A stretch of 37,397 nucleotides of DNA. Source: a virus. The notes beneath the pieces are model-generated. The model had not been told where the DNA came from and ran no database searches. It saw only the letters and a list, made by a program, of their open reading frames with translations. The translations under genes and the position numbers were made by a program. Location of the stretch: the IMG/VR virus record IMGVR_UViG_3300042476_000164, positions 1 to 37,397 of that record. The stretch is one strand, 5' to 3'. This document shows, piece after piece, positions 3,968 to 37,397 of this stretch (position 1 is its first letter; each line of letters begins with the position of its first letter).

Positions 3968-4127
3968 GGATCACGGTATGGTAGCCTCACCGCGATCACT
4001 TGAATACGTCTGGTCGCAGTATTTCGATGCTATCGAACGCGATTACTACAACTACAATCAGTACCGATCGAACGTAAATAAGTGGCGCGATATTGCGATG
4101 CAAATGGATGTAATCGTAAACGGATGA
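3948..4127 (+). CDS. Small hypothetical protein, start uncertain
   Basis: The reading frame is open from 3858, but starting there would overlap the previous gene by 110 bases. I prefer the ATG at 3948 (MIQQFYKDHGMV), giving 59 residues and a 20-base overlap. Starts at 3912 (MDQRRNV) and 3858 remain possible. The product is Tyr/Asp-rich and probably helical (EYVWSQYFDAIERDYYNY). I do not recognise the family. The stop overlaps the PP-loop gene's start by ATGA. Confidence 0.55.
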   Translation: MIQQFYKDHGMVASPRSLEYVWSQYFDAIERDYYNYNQYRSNVNKWRDIAMQMDVIVNG

Positions 4128-4945
4128 TAATAGCATGGTGGTCTGGAGGTGTAACATCAGCGGTGGCTTGTTGGCTTTCAATTCAATTGTTTGGCGCAGA
4201 CAATGTACGCATAGTTTTTATTGATACGTACAATGAAGATGAAGATACTTACCGCTTTAAGCATGATTGTGAGTTGTGGTATGGTAAACAAATTGAATCA
4301 ATATCGAATAGTAGATATCAAAGCATTCAAGAAGTCTGGCTTAAACATAAAAGCCTGAACGTAGCACATGGTGCAATATGCTCAAGTGAACTTAAAAGAG
4401 TAGTACGAGAGAAGTTTCAAAAAGAAAATGAGTATAAGTATCAGGTATTTGGATTTGATATTGACGAGCCAAAAAGAGCTAAAGCCATGACATTGAATTC
4501 CCCGAAAGCTAACGCCATTTATCCATTATTAATGTTTGGATATTCCAAAAAGCTTTGCATTGAATTGTTAAACAATCACGGTATAGGAATACCTACCGCT
4601 TACAAATTAGGATTTAACAACAATAACTGTTTAAATACTGGATGTGTTCAAGGCGGTATAGGATACTGGCAAAAGATGCAACGCGAGTTTCCGGATAAGT
4701 TTAATAAGATGGCTGAGATGGAACATCAGTTAACAGACATTAAAGGAAAGCCAGTTACAATGTTAAAAGATCAGAAATCAGGACTTTTAGTATTTTTGAA
4801 GTCACATAAGGATTATCCGTATTACAAAGATATATCAATGATGAAAGGACGCGAGCCTAAACCATTAACAGATTGTAATGGATTTTGCGGTATCAATGAC
4901 TTAGAGCCTATACATCCCACACAATCAGAAATAAACTTCGACTAA
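4124..4945 (+). CDS. PP-loop ATP pyrophosphatase, PAPS-reductase-like
   Basis: I start this 273-residue protein at 4124 (MIIAWWSGG), where ATG overlaps the previous stop. An in-frame start 42 bases upstream would eat into the previous gene. The PP-loop SGGVTS lies at residues 7-12, followed by a Rossmann-like strand VRIVFIDT. This is the N-type ATP-PPase fold that adenylates substrates in PAPS reductases and tRNA or DNA thiolation enzymes. Cysteines C86, C169/C174 and C251/C255 could bind metal or an Fe-S cluster, as in DndC-like and PAPS-reductase-like proteins. The substrate cannot be read from sequence. The gene is AT-rich compared with both neighbours, so it is probably an acquired accessory gene for nucleic-acid or sulphur modification. 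Confidence 0.8.
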   Translation: MIIAWWSGGVTSAVACWLSIQLFGADNVRIVFIDTYNEDEDTYRFKHDCELWYGKQIESISNSRYQSIQEVWLKHKSLNVAHGAICSSELKRVVREKFQKENEYKYQVFGFDIDEPKRAKAMTLNSPKANAIYPLLMFGYSKKLCIELLNNHGIGIPTAYKLGFNNNNCLNTGCVQGGIGYWQKMQREFPDKFNKMAEMEHQLTDIKGKPVTMLKDQKSGLLVFLKSHKDYPYYKDISMMKGREPKPLTDCNGFCGINDLEPIHPTQSEINFD

Positions 4946-8384: not shown

Positions 8385-8728
8385 CCCCACTCGAACTCTA
8401 CCTAATTCAATCCGGTTACACGCGATACCGGTCAGACGGGACTATTGCACGCGAAACGGATACGTACAGTGCGATGGGATCGTTGTATTTCGATTACGTT
8501 TTAGGTGATAAATCGTACAGAATAGGATTGCACGGGAGGGGTAAGCCTGCTACGCTGATCAGTCCGCGTCCGAAAGTGATACGCGAAATGAGCGTGAACG
8601 GTAGATACTTTCGCTATAATAATGCAGAATTGTTTGATGATACGATGAACATCGTACTTGCCCGATACACGCCAAAAGAGTTAATTCAGCTGATCGAATC
8701 GGGCGAAACGATTACTATCTTTGAGTAG
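8381..8728 (+). CDS. Hypothetical protein ending the early operon
   Basis: This 115-residue protein starts in an ATGA overlap with the previous stop. It reads as a small alpha/beta protein (LYFDYVLGDKSYRIGL, KVIREMSVNGRYFRYN) with a C-terminal helix (ELIQLIESGE). No family is recognised. It is the last plus-strand gene of the early run and is followed by a GC-rich hairpin at 8755-8780 that may stop transcription. Confidence 0.65.
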   Translation: MTPLELYLIQSGYTRYRSDGTIARETDTYSAMGSLYFDYVLGDKSYRIGLHGRGKPATLISPRPKVIREMSVNGRYFRYNNAELFDDTMNIVLARYTPKELIQLIESGETITIFE

Positions 8729-8754
8729 GTTTATTTTGAGTTAAGGGTTGTTGT

Positions 8755-8780
8755 AGCAGGGGGCAGGGGTGTCCCCTGCT
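8755..8780 (+). terminator. GC-rich hairpin after the early operon
   Basis: AGCAGGGG (8755-8762) pairs perfectly with CCCCTGCT (8773-8780) around a 10-base loop, 27 bases after the last early stop codon. It is followed by TAATTATG rather than a U-run, so it is an imperfect intrinsic terminator. The symmetric stem could slow polymerase from both sides. Confidence 0.5.
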
Positions 8781-8920
8781 TAATTATGCCACTCAACTAT
8801 GCCATGATTTCCTACCGTACTTATTGCGAAGTTAACCCCGATGGATTTTATAATAGGTAGTATTCCTGCCCATTCTCCTACGGTGTAGCAGTCCTTTAGG
8901 TTCTCAGTACCGATAAGCAT
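8780..8920 (-). pseudogene. Truncated second copy of the 9306-9623 gene's 3' end
   Basis: The frame gives 46 residues from MLIGTENLKDCYTV to VEWHN. A 29-residue block (KDCYTV to ISTVG) is identical to the C-terminal part of the neighbouring 105-residue protein, yet ten of its 29 codons differ, all synonymously. The first ~57 residues of the gene are missing, and similarity stops upstream of the LKDCY segment. It lies beyond the leftward terminator at 8991-9026, so it is probably a displaced 3' remnant. Translation from the internal ATG at 8920 is still possible. Synonymous-only divergence shows that both gene ends evolved under protein-level selection before they met in one genome. Confidence 0.8.
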
Positions 8921-8965
8921 CAGTTGTAAGAGATTCCACCTGATGCAGGGATAAAAAAAGTTTTA

Positions 8966-8973
8966 TATCTTTG
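8966..8973 (+). promoter_or_regulatory. Promoter -7 box before a small hydrophobic peptide
   Basis: TATCTTTG matches the -7 consensus and continues as TATCTTTGTCGCA, almost the same 13-mer as at 27-39. An A-tract lies just upstream. A TTG at the -33 position is not evident. It would give a plus-strand transcript starting near 8980 with a ~100-base structured leader. Confidence 0.55.
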
Positions 8974-8990
8974 TCGCATACCGGCTGAGC

Positions 8991-9026
8991 ATAATAAAAA
9001 AAGGCAAGCGTTGGCGCGCTTACCTT
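8991..9026 (-). terminator. Intrinsic terminator for leftward transcription
   Basis: AAGGCAAGCG (9001-9010) pairs with CGCTTACCTT (9017-9026), 9 of 10 bases, around a 6-base loop. On the minus strand the stem is followed by UUUUUUUAUUAU (from 9002 to 8991). This is a textbook Rho-independent terminator for the leftward operon and for the small RNA predicted just upstream of it. On the plus strand no U-run follows, so rightward transcripts would carry it as a leader hairpin. Confidence 0.8.
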
Positions 9027-9080
9027 TAATAAATAGCAGCAAAACTTTGCTTTTGATTCACACTCAAAAACACAAACAAA

Positions 9081-9188
9081 ATGCGAAACGCAATCGCAAT
9101 TGCTTGTTTGATTGATGCTGCTAACCGGTTTTTACAAAATCCATTTGTGCAGTTATTAATTATGCTTGCAATTTACAAGCAGGGTTAA
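9081..9188 (+). CDS. 35-aa hydrophobic peptide
   Basis: The peptide starts MRNAIAIACLIDAANRF and ends FVQLLIMLAIYKQG. Two hydrophobic patches (AIAIACLI, FVQLLIMLAIY) could insert in the membrane. The start follows CACTCAAAAACACAAACAAA, the same A/C-rich leader type as the strongest genes in this phage, and a promoter box lies 107 bases upstream. An RNA on the other strand covers the whole gene. A small hydrophobic peptide opposed by an antisense RNA is the layout of type I toxin-antitoxin modules, but no homology is claimed. The short length keeps this tentative. Confidence 0.5.
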   Translation: MRNAIAIACLIDAANRFLQNPFVQLLIMLAIYKQG

Positions 9189-9270
9189 TCCCCGCCTTAA
9201 CCGCATCTAAATCCTCTCGCCTCTCTTCGCTCGGACGGATTTCTTGCGGACGGTTGCGACTTGTTTTCAT
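9160..9270 (-). CDS. Possible leaderless 36-aa peptide
   Basis: The frame encodes a charged peptide (MKTSRNRPQEIRPSEERRED to KLQA) whose ATG is only 4 bases after the promoter's TATATTTG box. Any translation would therefore be essentially leaderless. Its 3' end overlaps the opposite 35-aa frame by 29 bases. It may equally be an accidental frame in a regulatory RNA. Confidence 0.3.
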   Translation of the reverse strand: MKTSRNRPQEIRPSEERREDLDAVKAGINPACKLQA

Positions 9271-9274
9271 ATGG

Positions 9275-9305
9275 CAAATATACAAACTATTCCGAAACTA
9301 CCAAA
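9275..9305 (-). promoter_or_regulatory. Leftward Bacteroidota-type promoter
   Basis: On the minus strand TTTG (9302-9305) is followed after 19 bases by TATATTTG (9275-9282). This is the best -33/-7 match in the window. It lies immediately downstream of the 9306-9623 gene, and transcription from it runs about 280 bases to the terminator at 8991-9026. Confidence 0.7.
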
Positions 9306-9623
9306 TCAATCATGCCACTCTACCAACCCATTATCCCCTACCGTACTAATGGCGAAGTTGACCCCGATGGACTTGATGATCGGTAGTATCCCTGCCCATT
9401 CGCCTACGGTGTAGCAGTCCTTCAGGAGCAGAACTACCGGCTGTTTGCTCTGTTCAATCAGTATCATCTGATCTATAAAATCTGCATCGTTATAATCGAG
9501 TAGAACTAATCTCTTGTCAGGCGATGGATCGGATAGGAACTCCTTGAGGTCATCGAATGCAGGATAATAAATTTTGGAAGCAAAGCAGTACTTATTCAGT
9601 ACGCAGTCAAAATCTGATTCCAT
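9306..9623 (-). CDS. Hypothetical protein, last gene of the late operon
   Basis: This 105-residue protein reads as alternating strands and helices (KRLVLLDYNDADFIDQMILI, QPVVLLLKDCYTVGEWAGIL, VNFAISTVGDNGLVEWHD). The pattern is vaguely like a receiver or Rossmann-type half-domain, without recognisable catalytic residues. I do not recognise the family. It overlaps the start side of the spanin-like gene by 17 bases. Its 3' end is duplicated at 8780-8920, which suggests recombination at this gene end. Confidence 0.7.
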   Translation of the reverse strand: MESDFDCVLNKYCFASKIYYPAFDDLKEFLSDPSPDKRLVLLDYNDADFIDQMILIEQSKQPVVLLLKDCYTVGEWAGILPIIKSIGVNFAISTVGDNGLVEWHD

Positions 9624-18653: not shown

Positions 18654-19670
18654 TTAGTAGAATTGTGAAGCAGTACGAATCTGTACGGGTGATGCGCAAT
18701 CAAGGCAGCAATCACAATCGAGATACATTCCGTCCGCTACTTGTTTGAGTGATTTTTGATATTCAACTTCATACTCAGCCCGTAAGTCCTTCATCTGATT
18801 CATTCCGATGGTAGTCCACTTGCTCAGAGTAGTCGAGTAGATTAGTTCAGTCAGAAATTCGATACCGCATAGATACCAGAACGCACGACTAAATAAGTTT
18901 TTATTCTGACAGATCAAACTATCCCAAGAGCAAGTCACATTGAAAGTTGCTGTTACACCATAAGACTCTGCTGATTCAGAATATACTTGATTGCCTGAAA
19001 TTGACATACCATTTATATCTGCTTGGCAACAACTATTAATTCTGATTTCACTATTCAATGTCTGTGAAACAAATGCAAGTTGTTCAGCATTATTAATTAC
19101 ACAAGCAATTCTTAAAGGATTTTGTGTTGAAGTAGATAAAAAAGATTGATTTATCTCATAATTCTCCCAGCCACCTGCTCCAAGCACTATTGATTTTTGA
19201 TACAAAATCTGATTAGTATCCATATCAAAAAATACAACACTTGAATCTAAACCAGTATTTACTCCTAATGGATTGTAAAAAGAAACAGATTGAACATTTA
19301 TTTGCATTAATGGTGATGGAGTATAAAGATTATCACCACTATTTAATTCTATTGATATTCCTAAATAAGTTGAATTTGGATATGTATTAGTAGTATAATC
19401 TTCTATGTCTCTACTTAAAGTCACACCCTGCGCTAACGACTTCAACCGATACTTAGCACCCATTGCCTCACGTACATCGAGCGCGAATCTTCTCTCAGCG
19501 CGATTCTGCACCGTGTTCCATACCGATAGGAACGTACCGTTTTCTTCGTCTGTGATCGAATTGAATTGCTTTATACTAAGACCTGGCAGATCGTTAATAT
19601 AAAGAGAAGATGGGGCGGAGGCTGAACCTCCGCACCACCTTATCCCGATGTAGTCGTTAAGACAACCCAT
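18654..19670 (-). CDS. Head-tail adaptor-like protein with a putative inserted domain
   Basis: The 338-residue protein has a normal-composition N-terminus (MGCLNDYIGIRWCGG) and a helical C-terminus (NQMKDLRAEYEVEYQKSLKQ, then CDCCLDC). In between, about residues 85-235 (bases ~18970-19420), lies an AT-rich, strand-rich segment (MQINVQSVSFYNPLG, DSSVVFFDMDTNQILYQKSI). The split composition suggests a carbohydrate-binding-like or Ig-like domain inserted into a connector. Neighbours are the capsid and gp10-like genes. The protein may therefore display an extra domain on the particle. Confidence 0.6.
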   Translation of the reverse strand: MGCLNDYIGIRWCGGSASAPSSLYINDLPGLSIKQFNSITDEENGTFLSVWNTVQNRAERRFALDVREAMGAKYRLKSLAQGVTLSRDIEDYTTNTYPNSTYLGISIELNSGDNLYTPSPLMQINVQSVSFYNPLGVNTGLDSSVVFFDMDTNQILYQKSIVLGAGGWENYEINQSFLSTSTQNPLRIACVINNAEQLAFVSQTLNSEIRINSCCQADINGMSISGNQVYSESAESYGVTATFNVTCSWDSLICQNKNLFSRAFWYLCGIEFLTELIYSTTLSKWTTIGMNQMKDLRAEYEVEYQKSLKQVADGMYLDCDCCLDCASPVQIRTASQFY

Positions 19671-33838: not shown

Positions 33839-35068
33839 CAAAAAGAATCGAATGAAATCGGAATGAAATGTATATAAATAGTACCTCATGCAGTCGAGCA
33901 GATCGGCCTTCTTGTTTTCAGTCGATCGGTCTTTCTTGATATCGCCCTCACCGTCCACCTCCACATATTTCAGATCCCGTATCAACCCCGTGCAACTCGG
34001 ATCGATCTTGACCGTTGCATTCTGAAGCAGACTATTCAACAACACCCGCGTATCCCTGACCGATGGATTCATTCGGGGTTGCTTCATCTGGGCATTGCCT
34101 AACCGCAGCTTAGTACGCACCACATCATAATACCCAAGATTGCCCTGAGTCACCGCAGTGCGATTAGCCCCCGTACTATCGCCTGTGATCACGAACGATG
34201 CAGTCGGATAGGCCGATACGATCTGATCGCATAGAGCGTAAATATCGGAGTTGGCCAGAGCAAACTCACGGATCACGTGTATCTCAGTCCCGTACTGTTG
34301 CACCGCTATGCACGTAATTGGATCCACGTTGAAGTCAAACGATAGGTATAGCGTCCCCTTCGGATCGAACTGTACCGGCTGAACGTGCTTGATTGGATCG
34401 AACGCATACGCAAACGGATTGTAAGCCAGATCGACATCTTCGGCTAATATCTCACACCGGAATGATAGATCATCTAACTGCTTGCGTAACTCATCAACCT
34501 CATCGCGGTCAATATGCGGATTATCGTACGTGCTTAGGTTGAATGCTGCCCATCCCGGCTCTCCCCCTCGTTTGTGCAATTCCTTGAAGTAGGTATCTCC
34601 GAACTTTGGTGTGGATAGTAGCCAAGCGTCCCCCTTATAATCGAGTAAGGTCGGCATAATCGCTCCCTGCCAGGCTTCCTTAAACTTCTTCGATTTCTCG
34701 ACCTCATCCACCACCACGCGCTTATACTTGCGACCCCGACCAGAATCAGGATTATCCAAACTCCAACAATCGATAACCCCACCACCAATAAGTCGAAGCT
34801 GCTTAGTCTGCTCGTTTTTTTTGATTATAATCGGTTCGAGTAACGTCTTCAACTCCTGCCAGACCTCATCTAAATCCTTATAGGTCGGAGCATAGTAAGC
34901 TACCGGATAACCTTCCAAAGCCGGTGCAATTATCAGGTAGTTGACTGAGCAAAAAGTCTTGCCCCACCTGCGACCAATCTTTAGGACATTATACCTCTTT
35001 GAACTGGCAATAACGGACAATTGCCCACTATGCAGCGGTTGAGCTACTATTGTTAAATGGTGATCCAT
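33836..35068 (-). CDS. Terminase large subunit
   Basis: The 410-residue protein has a complete ATPase with Walker A GRRWGKT (32-38), Walker B VVVDE (118-122) and coupling motif LLSTPK (150-155). It also has an RNase H-like nuclease with FDF (D245), GDSTG (D297) and LLDCMRYY (D389/D392 region). It cuts concatemers and drives DNA into the prohead through the portal. Its 410 residues are near the usual lower limit but no motif is missing. The gene overlaps the small upstream gene by 41 bases. Confidence 0.95.
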   Translation of the reverse strand: MDHHLTIVAQPLHSGQLSVIASSKRYNVLKIGRRWGKTFCSVNYLIIAPALEGYPVAYYAPTYKDLDEVWQELKTLLEPIIIKKNEQTKQLRLIGGGVIDCWSLDNPDSGRGRKYKRVVVDEVEKSKKFKEAWQGAIMPTLLDYKGDAWLLSTPKFGDTYFKELHKRGGEPGWAAFNLSTYDNPHIDRDEVDELRKQLDDLSFRCEILAEDVDLAYNPFAYAFDPIKHVQPVQFDPKGTLYLSFDFNVDPITCIAVQQYGTEIHVIREFALANSDIYALCDQIVSAYPTASFVITGDSTGANRTAVTQGNLGYYDVVRTKLRLGNAQMKQPRMNPSVRDTRVLLNSLLQNATVKIDPSCTGLIRDLKYVEVDGEGDIKKDRSTENKKADLLDCMRYYLYTFHSDFIRFFL

Positions 35069-35243
35069 CAGGATATTTAACGGTCAATGTAACTGCTCCG
35101 CTCGATTCGTCTTCCTTCAACAGGCGCGTGATCTCAATAGCATACTTAACCCGTTCGGATTTACTCAGTGCCATGTAATCGGCAACTAACTGATCCGGGT
35201 CGATATTGTCATGCAGGAACTTTAGTAATGATTTTGCGCTCAC
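35028..35243 (-). CDS. Candidate small terminase subunit, GTG start
   Basis: The 71-residue protein is helical (SLLKFLHDNIDPDQLVADYM, ERVKYAIEITRLLKED) with a Ser/Ala tail. It begins with GTG, whose GTGA overlaps the previous stop, and overlaps the large terminase. Small size and position suggest the DNA-recognition subunit. Most small terminases are longer with a clear HTH, so this may be a short version or an unrelated early protein. Confidence 0.5.
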   Translation of the reverse strand: MSAKSLLKFLHDNIDPDQLVADYMALSKSERVKYAIEITRLLKEDESSGAVTLTVKYPDGSPFNNSSSTAA

Positions 35244-35809
35244 TTGTTTTTTCGGTACTGGTAAAAGTACAAAATTCTATCTATCAAAGGACATACCGAA
35301 ATCGCATTATCAGCAGCCATGCGCTTCGCATAGTCGAAGTCTTCTGCATGGTTTAGGATCGCATACGGATACTTACGGGCGATCTCCGTTCGGATCGGAT
35401 TGAGATGGTTGACCGGGCGATGATATGTAATCTGACCTTTGACCCATCTCGGCTTAGCATCCCATTCATAGCCTAAGTGATTAACAAAATATAACGGTGT
35501 AGACTTGCCCTCAGTAAGCATACCCCTGATACCTACCGCATCTGGCCGCGATTCCAACACCTTCAGGATCGTATCCACATAGTTCATAGCTACCAGATCG
35601 TCATCATCGATAAAGCACATATACTCAGTCTGCACGGCATCGACTGCACTGTTCCGTTTCTCACCGATCGTACTCTCGTAATTGTCCTTGACCGTGATGA
35701 TTCGTACCGGTTTACCCATCACCTGCGGATCGAGGCATTGACGCAGCCTGTTATAGAACTGCTCGCGGTCGTTCAGTGTCAGGATGCAGATGGTGAGGAT
35801 GTCGGTCAT
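35240..35809 (-). CDS. Family-2-like glycosyltransferase
   Basis: The 189-residue protein has LTICILTLNDREQFYN at the start, RIITVKDNYESTIGEKRN, and a FIDDDDLV sequence (D68-D71) that binds the metal-nucleotide sugar. It is shorter than usual GT2 proteins, so the acceptor part is reduced. Together with the neighbouring transferase it forms a gene pair at the head of the late operon. The acceptor is unknown. Confidence 0.8.
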   Translation of the reverse strand: MTDILTICILTLNDREQFYNRLRQCLDPQVMGKPVRIITVKDNYESTIGEKRNSAVDAVQTEYMCFIDDDDLVAMNYVDTILKVLESRPDAVGIRGMLTEGKSTPLYFVNHLGYEWDAKPRWVKGQITYHRPVNHLNPIRTEIARKYPYAILNHAEDFDYAKRMAADNAISVCPLIDRILYFYQYRKNK

Positions 35810-36453
35810 AGCGGAAACCCTCCAGCCTTACGTTGTTCAAATAACTTCTCACCGACCTTCCAAGCGATCGAACTATTCTCCCGGTCATAGGTCGCATCCT
35901 TCTGCGACTTACCCACCGTGTAGTGATTGTGCTGAAACCCTACGATCGAACTGACCCGATACAGATGGTGCGTCTTAGCCGTTTCGGCCAGATCGTTATC
36001 GGCAAACATTGAGATGTATCCGGGATGATACAAATACCCCAGAACATTGTATGCTATACGATTCATTATGGGCAGAGTCATTATATCCGATCGGATACCA
36101 TCATGCACCTGCAATACTACCGGATTCGCACCGTTCAGGTACTGATCGGCCAGTAGCAACTGATCCCATCCCTGCGGTGCTTCCATGTCATCGCTGACCA
36201 GGATCAGGATATCGCCCTTCGATCTCGATGCAGCCGCGTTCGATGCAGCAACCATGCCATTGAACGAATCAGCAACCACAATCAGGCCGGTGTCATCCAT
36301 TACCTTCATGTAGTTGCTGAACTGAGGATCGTTATCGTTGAGCGATAGTATCCACTCAATCGAACTATCCGTAACCATTCGATCTAACCACTGCTGAACA
36401 CACCGCCGAGCCTGCTCAGGCCGTCCGTATGATGGGTGACAGATCGAAATCAT
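35806..36453 (-). CDS. Family-2-like glycosyltransferase
   Basis: I start this 215-residue protein at 36453 (MISICHPSYGRPEQA), where ATG overlaps the previous stop. The frame runs 105 bases further upstream but would overlap the preceding gene. The opening ISICHPSYGRPEQARR and the D-rich VSDDM site (87-90) match GT2 enzymes. A C-terminal part (YHPGYISMFADNDLAETAKT) is typical of sugar-acceptor regions. It is paired with the next transferase by a 4-base overlap. Confidence 0.8.
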   Translation of the reverse strand: MISICHPSYGRPEQARRCVQQWLDRMVTDSSIEWILSLNDNDPQFSNYMKVMDDTGLIVVADSFNGMVAASNAAASRSKGDILILVSDDMEAPQGWDQLLLADQYLNGANPVVLQVHDGIRSDIMTLPIMNRIAYNVLGYLYHPGYISMFADNDLAETAKTHHLYRVSSIVGFQHNHYTVGKSQKDATYDRENSSIAWKVGEKLFEQRKAGGFPL

Positions 36454-36680
36454 CAGAACGGAAGATCCGATGTAGGTGATGATTGGCTCGCATCCGCCTG
36501 GCGCGGTTCGCGCAAACTCAGGCTGAGCCATTTCTTGCCATTCGTGTCCTTGATCCAACCGGATAGATCGAGCGTTTCGCCCTTGTAGTTAATCTTACCG
36601 GTGTAGTCGGGATGATTGTCCGACTTCTTTGATTCATTCCTGAATAGACTACCGCTATTCTCTTTGTGTTCGTATCCCAT
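36453..36680 (-). CDS. Small protein with SSB-like C-terminal tip
   Basis: The 75-residue protein reads NSGSLFRNESKKSDNHPDYT, then GKINYKGETLDLSGWIKD and KKWLSLSLREP, then a Ser-rich acidic tail ending SDLPF. The core matches a widespread small phage protein ('NSGSLF.N......HPDYtG....G....l.gWiK'). The DLPF end is like the acidic tip of single-stranded DNA-binding proteins that docks partner enzymes. It heads the leftward operon. A ssDNA-binding role is inference. Confidence 0.7.
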   Translation of the reverse strand: MGYEHKENSGSLFRNESKKSDNHPDYTGKINYKGETLDLSGWIKDTNGKKWLSLSLREPRQADASQSSPTSDLPF

Positions 36681-36795: not shown

Positions 36796-36804
36796 CTGTA
36801 ACAG
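36796..36804. promoter_or_regulatory. Operator-like palindrome 1 (CTGTAACAG)
   Basis: A 9-bp palindrome with core TGTAACA. Two other sites with TGT(A/T)ACA lie at 36829 and 37029. It could bind a phage or host regulator. Confidence 0.4.
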
Positions 36805-36828
36805 GTTGCTACAAATCCGATTTTGAAT

Positions 36829-36837
36829 GTGTTACAC
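36829..36837. promoter_or_regulatory. Operator-like palindrome 2 (GTGTTACAC)
   Basis: Exact reverse complement of the site at 37029-37037 and a palindrome in itself around one base. It is 25 bases after palindrome 1. Confidence 0.45.
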
Positions 36838-37028
36838 GTAACTGATTGACAGACAAGGATTAAGTCGAAACGGCTACGAATAAACGTAATACACACTTCA
36901 TAAGTCTATTTTTTTATAGTTTCTCTAAAAGAACACACACACACTATATGGCCAAAAGTGGAAATGAATCTGTGTATTTCGTTTTTGTGTAGCTGGCAAG
37001 TTCAACTCAATATAAATCAATCACTTGC

Positions 37029-37037
37029 GTGTAACAC
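37029..37037. promoter_or_regulatory. Operator-like palindrome 3 (GTGTAACAC)
   Basis: Reverse complement of the site at 36829-36837. It touches the larger inverted repeat at 37034-37058. Confidence 0.45.
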
Positions 37038-37058
37038 AATTGCTCAAAATTATTGTGT
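37034..37058. repeat. Inverted repeat ACACAAT-N11-ATTGTGT
   Basis: Perfect 7-bp arms surround an AT-rich 11-base centre that includes the minus-strand -7-like box TAATTTTG (37045-37052). This placement could let a regulator cover a late promoter. The expected -33 TTG is missing. Confidence 0.5.
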
Positions 37059-37203
37059 CGAAAGTGTGTTTCGGCTTCGGCTACTAAAGTATTGACAATT
37101 GATAAAGCCTATTCAGATTAATACTAATATAATAAGCCGATTTTATGGGTACTTTTTTAACCATGTTCTTTATTTTTTGAATGAGTTTACAAAGGTTGTC
37201 TAT

Positions 37204-37211
37204 TATCTTTG
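37204..37211 (+). promoter_or_regulatory. Early promoter -7 box, right copy
   Basis: Identical to TATCTTTG at 27-34. Here the upstream sequence is visible, including TTTG at 37176-37179 and the TTGACA at 37092, so this copy is the one to use when defining the promoter. Confidence 0.55.
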
Positions 37212-37243
37212 TCCCACTATTGAAAACTTAAAATTAAAACAAG

Positions 37244-37397
37244 ATGGAAGATTTGACGTTAAACAATGACTATGACGCACCGATCCGGTACAACTCAGTT
37301 ACTGACGGATTGCAAAGAACCCGTAGAACCAAGTATCCCTGGGCGCAAATGAAGCTGAACCAGAACTTTTTTGAAACGGCCAGACGTGGAACTGTAC
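37244..37397 (+). CDS. First early gene, truncated by the window end
   Basis: These bases encode the first 51 residues of the same 90-residue protein as 67-339. The only difference is a synonymous GAC for GAT in the ninth codon. It is not a second gene but the wrap-around of the assembly. Confidence 0.9.
   Translation, partial: MEDLTLNNDYDAPIRYNSVTDGLQRTRRTKYPWAQMKLNQNFFETARRGTV

Follow-up and report, generated by a model that had tools for sequence, protein, structure and literature searches.

Phage mosaicism routinely involves illegitimate exchange close to gene borders (PMC3029335), and the Red-type systems of phages are efficient at recombining diverged DNA (PMC2327257). Phages also carry morons, each consisting of an ORF with a promoter and a terminator between genes that are contiguous in relatives (PMC3029335), and integrative islands occupy the ends of tRNA and tmRNA genes (PMC4383910). 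Here, we describe a virus of bacteria in which a second, partial and slightly diverged copy of a gene end is located some 400 bases from the intact gene. The analysed stretch of DNA, referred to as the window, is the complete IMG/VR record of this virus (37,397 bases). As in mosaic junctions formed by illegitimate or homeologous recombination (PMC3029335, PMC2327257), the locus appears to contain a gene-border joint between related phages with short or no homology, the neighbouring genes are intact, and the virus encodes a RecE-like exonuclease. Unlike in those junctions, a sizeable part of the displaced gene end survives in readable form beside the intact gene.

The ends of the record (1–220 and 37178–37397) overlap by 220 bases with two mismatches. 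The genome is therefore about 37.18 kb long and circular or terminally redundant, and the mismatches suggest strain variation in the sample. Rightward early genes end at 8728 and leftward late genes end at 9306, and the region where the two operons meet, which holds the repeat and the cassette discussed below, lies at the maximum of the cumulative GC skew. The early operon is closed by a hairpin terminator (8740–8781, plus strand, fold z −3.97) with the sequence AGCAGGGG...CCCCTGCTT. The last gene of the late operon is an intact gene of 105 codons (9306–9623, minus strand) that belongs to no known family and whose structure model was too poor for use (pLDDT 48). Among the sampled windows, folding is strongest at 36801–37040, within the divergent region that precedes the early genes (z −6.1 on one strand and −5.2 on the other); this is a possible control or replication region.

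Relatives were searched for with the 105-codon gene, its neighbours, a 782-codon gene, a 339-codon phosphoesterase gene and DNA patterns of the cassette and of VGEWAGILP. One close relative was found, the IMG/VR contig IMGVR_UViG_3300020045_002214 (35,950 bases), whose homologue of the 105-codon gene encodes a 92% identical protein. Beyond this contig, the searches yielded just contig L007, which ends short of the region, and no relative with the region was found in the contigs of GTDB genomes, INPHARED or plasmids. Judged by the 782-codon gene, MW202828 (34%) is the closest annotated phage; there, rightward genes follow and no such junction is seen. The virus belongs to a phage group almost without sampling. 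Between the window phage and its relative, 43% of fourfold sites differ (0.64 after correction), and codon divergence has a genome-wide mean of 0.36 (sd 0.13). Two genes, one phosphoadenosine phosphosulfate reductase-like (4121–4945) and one glycosyltransferase-like (35806–36558), were likely exchanged recently, because their fourfold divergences of 0.20 and 0.10 are far below the genome value of 0.43. The relative is one contig whose far end may be misassembled; the two diverged, oppositely oriented copies of a homologue of window gene 18654–19670 at its end (34349–35950) are either a true inverted duplication or a misassembly.

The second gene end had been reported in an earlier note on this DNA, and a self-BLAST of the genome confirmed it as a direct repeat of 119 nt with 85% identity and a spacing of 526 (8782–8900 and 9308–9426, E = 4e-32). 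Apart from the end overlap, this is the sole internal repeat of the genome. The left copy (8782–8900, minus strand) is a 3' end remnant of a homologue of the 105-codon gene, comprising its last 39 codons and the stop codon. Together with its flank it forms an ORF of 46 codons, MLIGTENLKDC...WHN (8780–8920, minus strand). The earlier note had described the changes across a shared block of 29 residues as all synonymous, and the divergence of the two ends as synonymous-only. This is correct for the block of 29 codons (from the K of LKDC to VG), where ten codons differ and all ten changes are synonymous; with the L codon counted, 11 of 30 codons differ and no residue is changed. The description omitted the last nine codons, four of which differ in their residue (D/N, N/H, L/I, D/N), and thus holds for most of the left copy but not for the whole. 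Simulations of neutral change gave a synonymous-only outcome in 0 of 200,000 runs, which supports the note's view that both ends evolved as working protein ends.

In the relative, BLAST places the cassette (8893–9305) at the same position, next to a single gene end and with the left copy absent, and no second gene-end copy was found elsewhere in its record. Shared with the relative are the early terminator as far as CCCCTGCTT (8781) and the whole stretch that begins at CCTTTAGG (8893) and runs to the gene end. The place where the two phages differ is thus a slot (8782–8892) with conserved flanks, whose left border is the end of the terminator. Within the right flank, blocks 8893–9042 and 9193–9312 are 87–100% identical to the relative and the stretch between them is 33–61% identical. 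The slot of the relative contains a 325-nt segment (L003 5726–6050) that is unrelated to the left copy, has no match in phage records and folds into a hairpin that is long but imperfect (MFE −90 kcal/mol, z −4.1). This segment and the 5' part of the cassette RNA described below have a 12-mer in common, CAAGTCGCAACC. As the relative has the cassette without the left copy, the presence of the one is not coupled to that of the other. The proposal that the duplication was made by the entry of a cassette (8921–9305) is therefore not supported, nor is the candidate new exchange module built on it. The search for an empty site did turn up a single-ended phage, but one that carries the cassette, and no cassette-less phage was found.

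Comparison of the three gene ends gave 21 variable sites, at which the left copy alone differs in 11, the right copy alone in 5 and the relative alone in 2, with all three different at the remaining 3. The outlier is thus the left copy, and we reject a late duplication of the gene of the window phage as its origin. This also supports the idea that one end came from a related phage, most likely the left copy from a third phage. Left and right copies diverge (11/30 codons) just as much as the two phages do on average (0.36), a level that a third lineage from the same group would be expected to show. We likewise reject that the lineage of the relative itself recently donated the cassette and gene end, as the codon divergence of the gene end (0.18–0.36 per comparison window) is within the genome range. 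The divergence from the relative shows no step at the junction, so that the two halves are inseparable by ancestry. If the cassette was already present in the common ancestor of both phages, as this dating assumes, a left copy that had been dead since the phages split, for half of the distance between window phage and relative, should show 14.3 changed residues in 30 codons, where none are seen (P below 5e-5); for a copy dead for merely a tenth of that distance, P is 0.016. The left copy thus appears to have been under protein-level constraint almost to the present. It either became a remnant recently or is still translated, the latter being unlikely because it is located beyond the leftward terminator of the cassette.

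We propose that the left copy probably stems from a third phage, a relative, whose gene end was left over when one recent illegitimate junction attached it to the cassette side. Its left border looks as if it were native, with homology that stops 2–3 bases beyond the stop codon and no microhomology. On the other side, two BLAST matches overlap in an 8-base microhomology, CCTTTAGG (8893–8900), which closes the homology with the gene end and opens the homology with the cassette flank of the relative. The chance of at least 7 matching bases at a random joint is 0.0006 (0.06%). A single crossover would be expected to leave just such a pair of borders, one native and one joined at a microhomology. 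From the repeat, the distances, the microhomology and the relative with cassette and without left copy, all of which are observed, we infer that a third lineage existed, that one crossover took place and which direction it had. In the third lineage, the end of the 105-codon gene would have stood directly against the early-operon terminator. The crossover would have occurred inside that gene at CCTTTAGG, to the CCTTTAGG that borders the cassette of a relative-type genome, giving a hybrid with the terminator and last 39 codons of the third phage on its left side and the cassette and complete gene on its right. No phage of this postulated type was found in IMG/VR, INPHARED or GTDB genomes. The remnant is without visible function, and such a junction would be ordinary phage mosaicism. 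Given one relative, a recent entry of the cassette and a new gene end into the left-copy lineage from another phage is topologically equivalent to this junction.

Alternatively, the slot that separates the cassette from the early terminator may tolerate insertions, and a piece of about 119 bp from the gene end of a related phage could have entered it to give the left copy. The unrelated structured segment that fills this slot in the relative, between conserved flanks, argues for such tolerance, and one border of the left copy has microhomology; its other end lies at a stop codon without microhomology, which would then be a coincidence, and we regard this origin as possible but rather unlikely. 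The mobile cassette of the earlier note, which would enter the 3' end of a gene, supply a replacement end and leave the old end behind, is improbable, even though the topology fits and the cassette has a promoter and a terminator. Islands in tRNA and tmRNA genes leave such a displaced fragment, and share with this locus the order of intact gene end, insert and displaced fragment (PMC4383910). Unlike in those islands, the gene here encodes a protein, and the insert occurs without a displaced fragment in the relative. The repeats, 15% diverged over 119 nt, differ from the near-identical repeats of att sites; no integrase gene was found among the proteins scanned, which cover part of the ORFs, and an insert of 385 bases is too small to hold one. 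The left copy, as dead sequence, would also be much younger than the cassette.

The codons of the left copy would be preserved equally well in an ORF that is still translated, which is a point against the junction. Such a living short gene of 46 codons, kept by selection, agrees with the open frame, the ATG at 8920 and the first 30 shared codons without residue change. The ORF lies beyond the leftward terminator (9027–9000), however, and is absent in the relative, and no TAnnTTTG box occurs on its strand between 8920 and 9000, which makes this reading very unlikely. The locus might also be a chimera, formed during assembly or amplification from two phages that occurred together, as the record is a metagenomic assembly of an uncultivated virus and the mismatches in its end overlap point to more than one strain. 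The 8 bases at the joint are fewer than the shared words that assemblers require, and on either side the order of genes otherwise agrees with the relative, so that a chimera is scarcely credible.

Judged from its sequence, the conserved cassette appears to be a separate small leftward transcription unit. Its promoter, TTTG-N19-TATATTTG (9275–9305, minus strand), is an exact fit to the Bacteroidota promoter consensus, and a strong intrinsic terminator is predicted from the fold at 9000–9027 (minus strand); both are kept in the relative. Also kept is a rightward promoter-like −7-like box, TATCTTTG (8966–8973, plus strand), which has no −33 match. Just before it lies an inverted repeat (8917–8946), identified by folding and BLAST, with one double change from G-C to C-G between the phages. 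The earlier note had the anatomy right; of the elements that it placed between the copies, the rightward promoter lacks its −33 match and the 35-codon gene is doubtful.

The unit may encode a structured small RNA of about 270 nt (9000–9270, minus strand), with a near-invariant 5' part, a diverged middle and the terminator at its end. The candidate RNA folds with z −4.1 in the window phage and −4.4 in the relative, and with z −3.2 and −3.3 without the terminator, compared with a genome mean of −0.5 (sd 1.2) and 3.8% of control windows reaching z −3. The opposite strand also folds well (z −3.8 and −4.7), and the strand was therefore assigned from the promoter and terminator. The first 90 nt (9193–9282) are identical to the relative at 89 of 90 positions despite the 43% difference at fourfold sites, which indicates nucleotide-level constraint beyond what a protein reading of this part would explain. 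Rfam gave no match at gathering scores or at E up to 5.

Antisense to the candidate RNA is a hydrophobic ORF of 35 codons (9081–9188, plus strand), with a 32-codon ORF at the same place in the relative. The similarity of the two is weak (shuffle P 0.005), 13 of 60 genome ORFs of that size are as hydrophobic, and the ORF is only a weak gene candidate. Type I toxin-antitoxin modules combine a small, toxic hydrophobic peptide with an overlapping antisense RNA that neutralises it. A layout of this kind is predicted in both phages, and the ORF and candidate RNA are possibly such a pair.

It is doubtful that the cassette (8893–9305) is a new Bacteroidota-phage regulatory module, that is, a ~270-nt RNA with its own promoter and terminator, possibly antisense to a fast-evolving hydrophobic peptide, which spreads by replacing the end of a neighbouring gene. 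The PeSL cassettes that Arbiol et al. reportedly described in 2010 in T4-type phages are said to be, as here, small promoter and stem-loop units between genes; they belong to a different phage group, and no repeated copies are seen across this genome. Like morons, the cassette has a predicted promoter (9305–9275, minus strand) and terminator (9027–9000, minus strand) of its own, here between two operons (PMC3029335). Unlike morons, it is present in both known phages and never seen as presence or absence, and its conserved product looks like RNA rather than protein.

As the gene-end remnant can still be read as protein, it provides a dated junction, a recent swap of related phages at an operon border whose microhomology is visible. 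The cassette RNA, if it exists, would add a new structured RNA to the place where early and late transcription meet, in an almost unsampled phage group.
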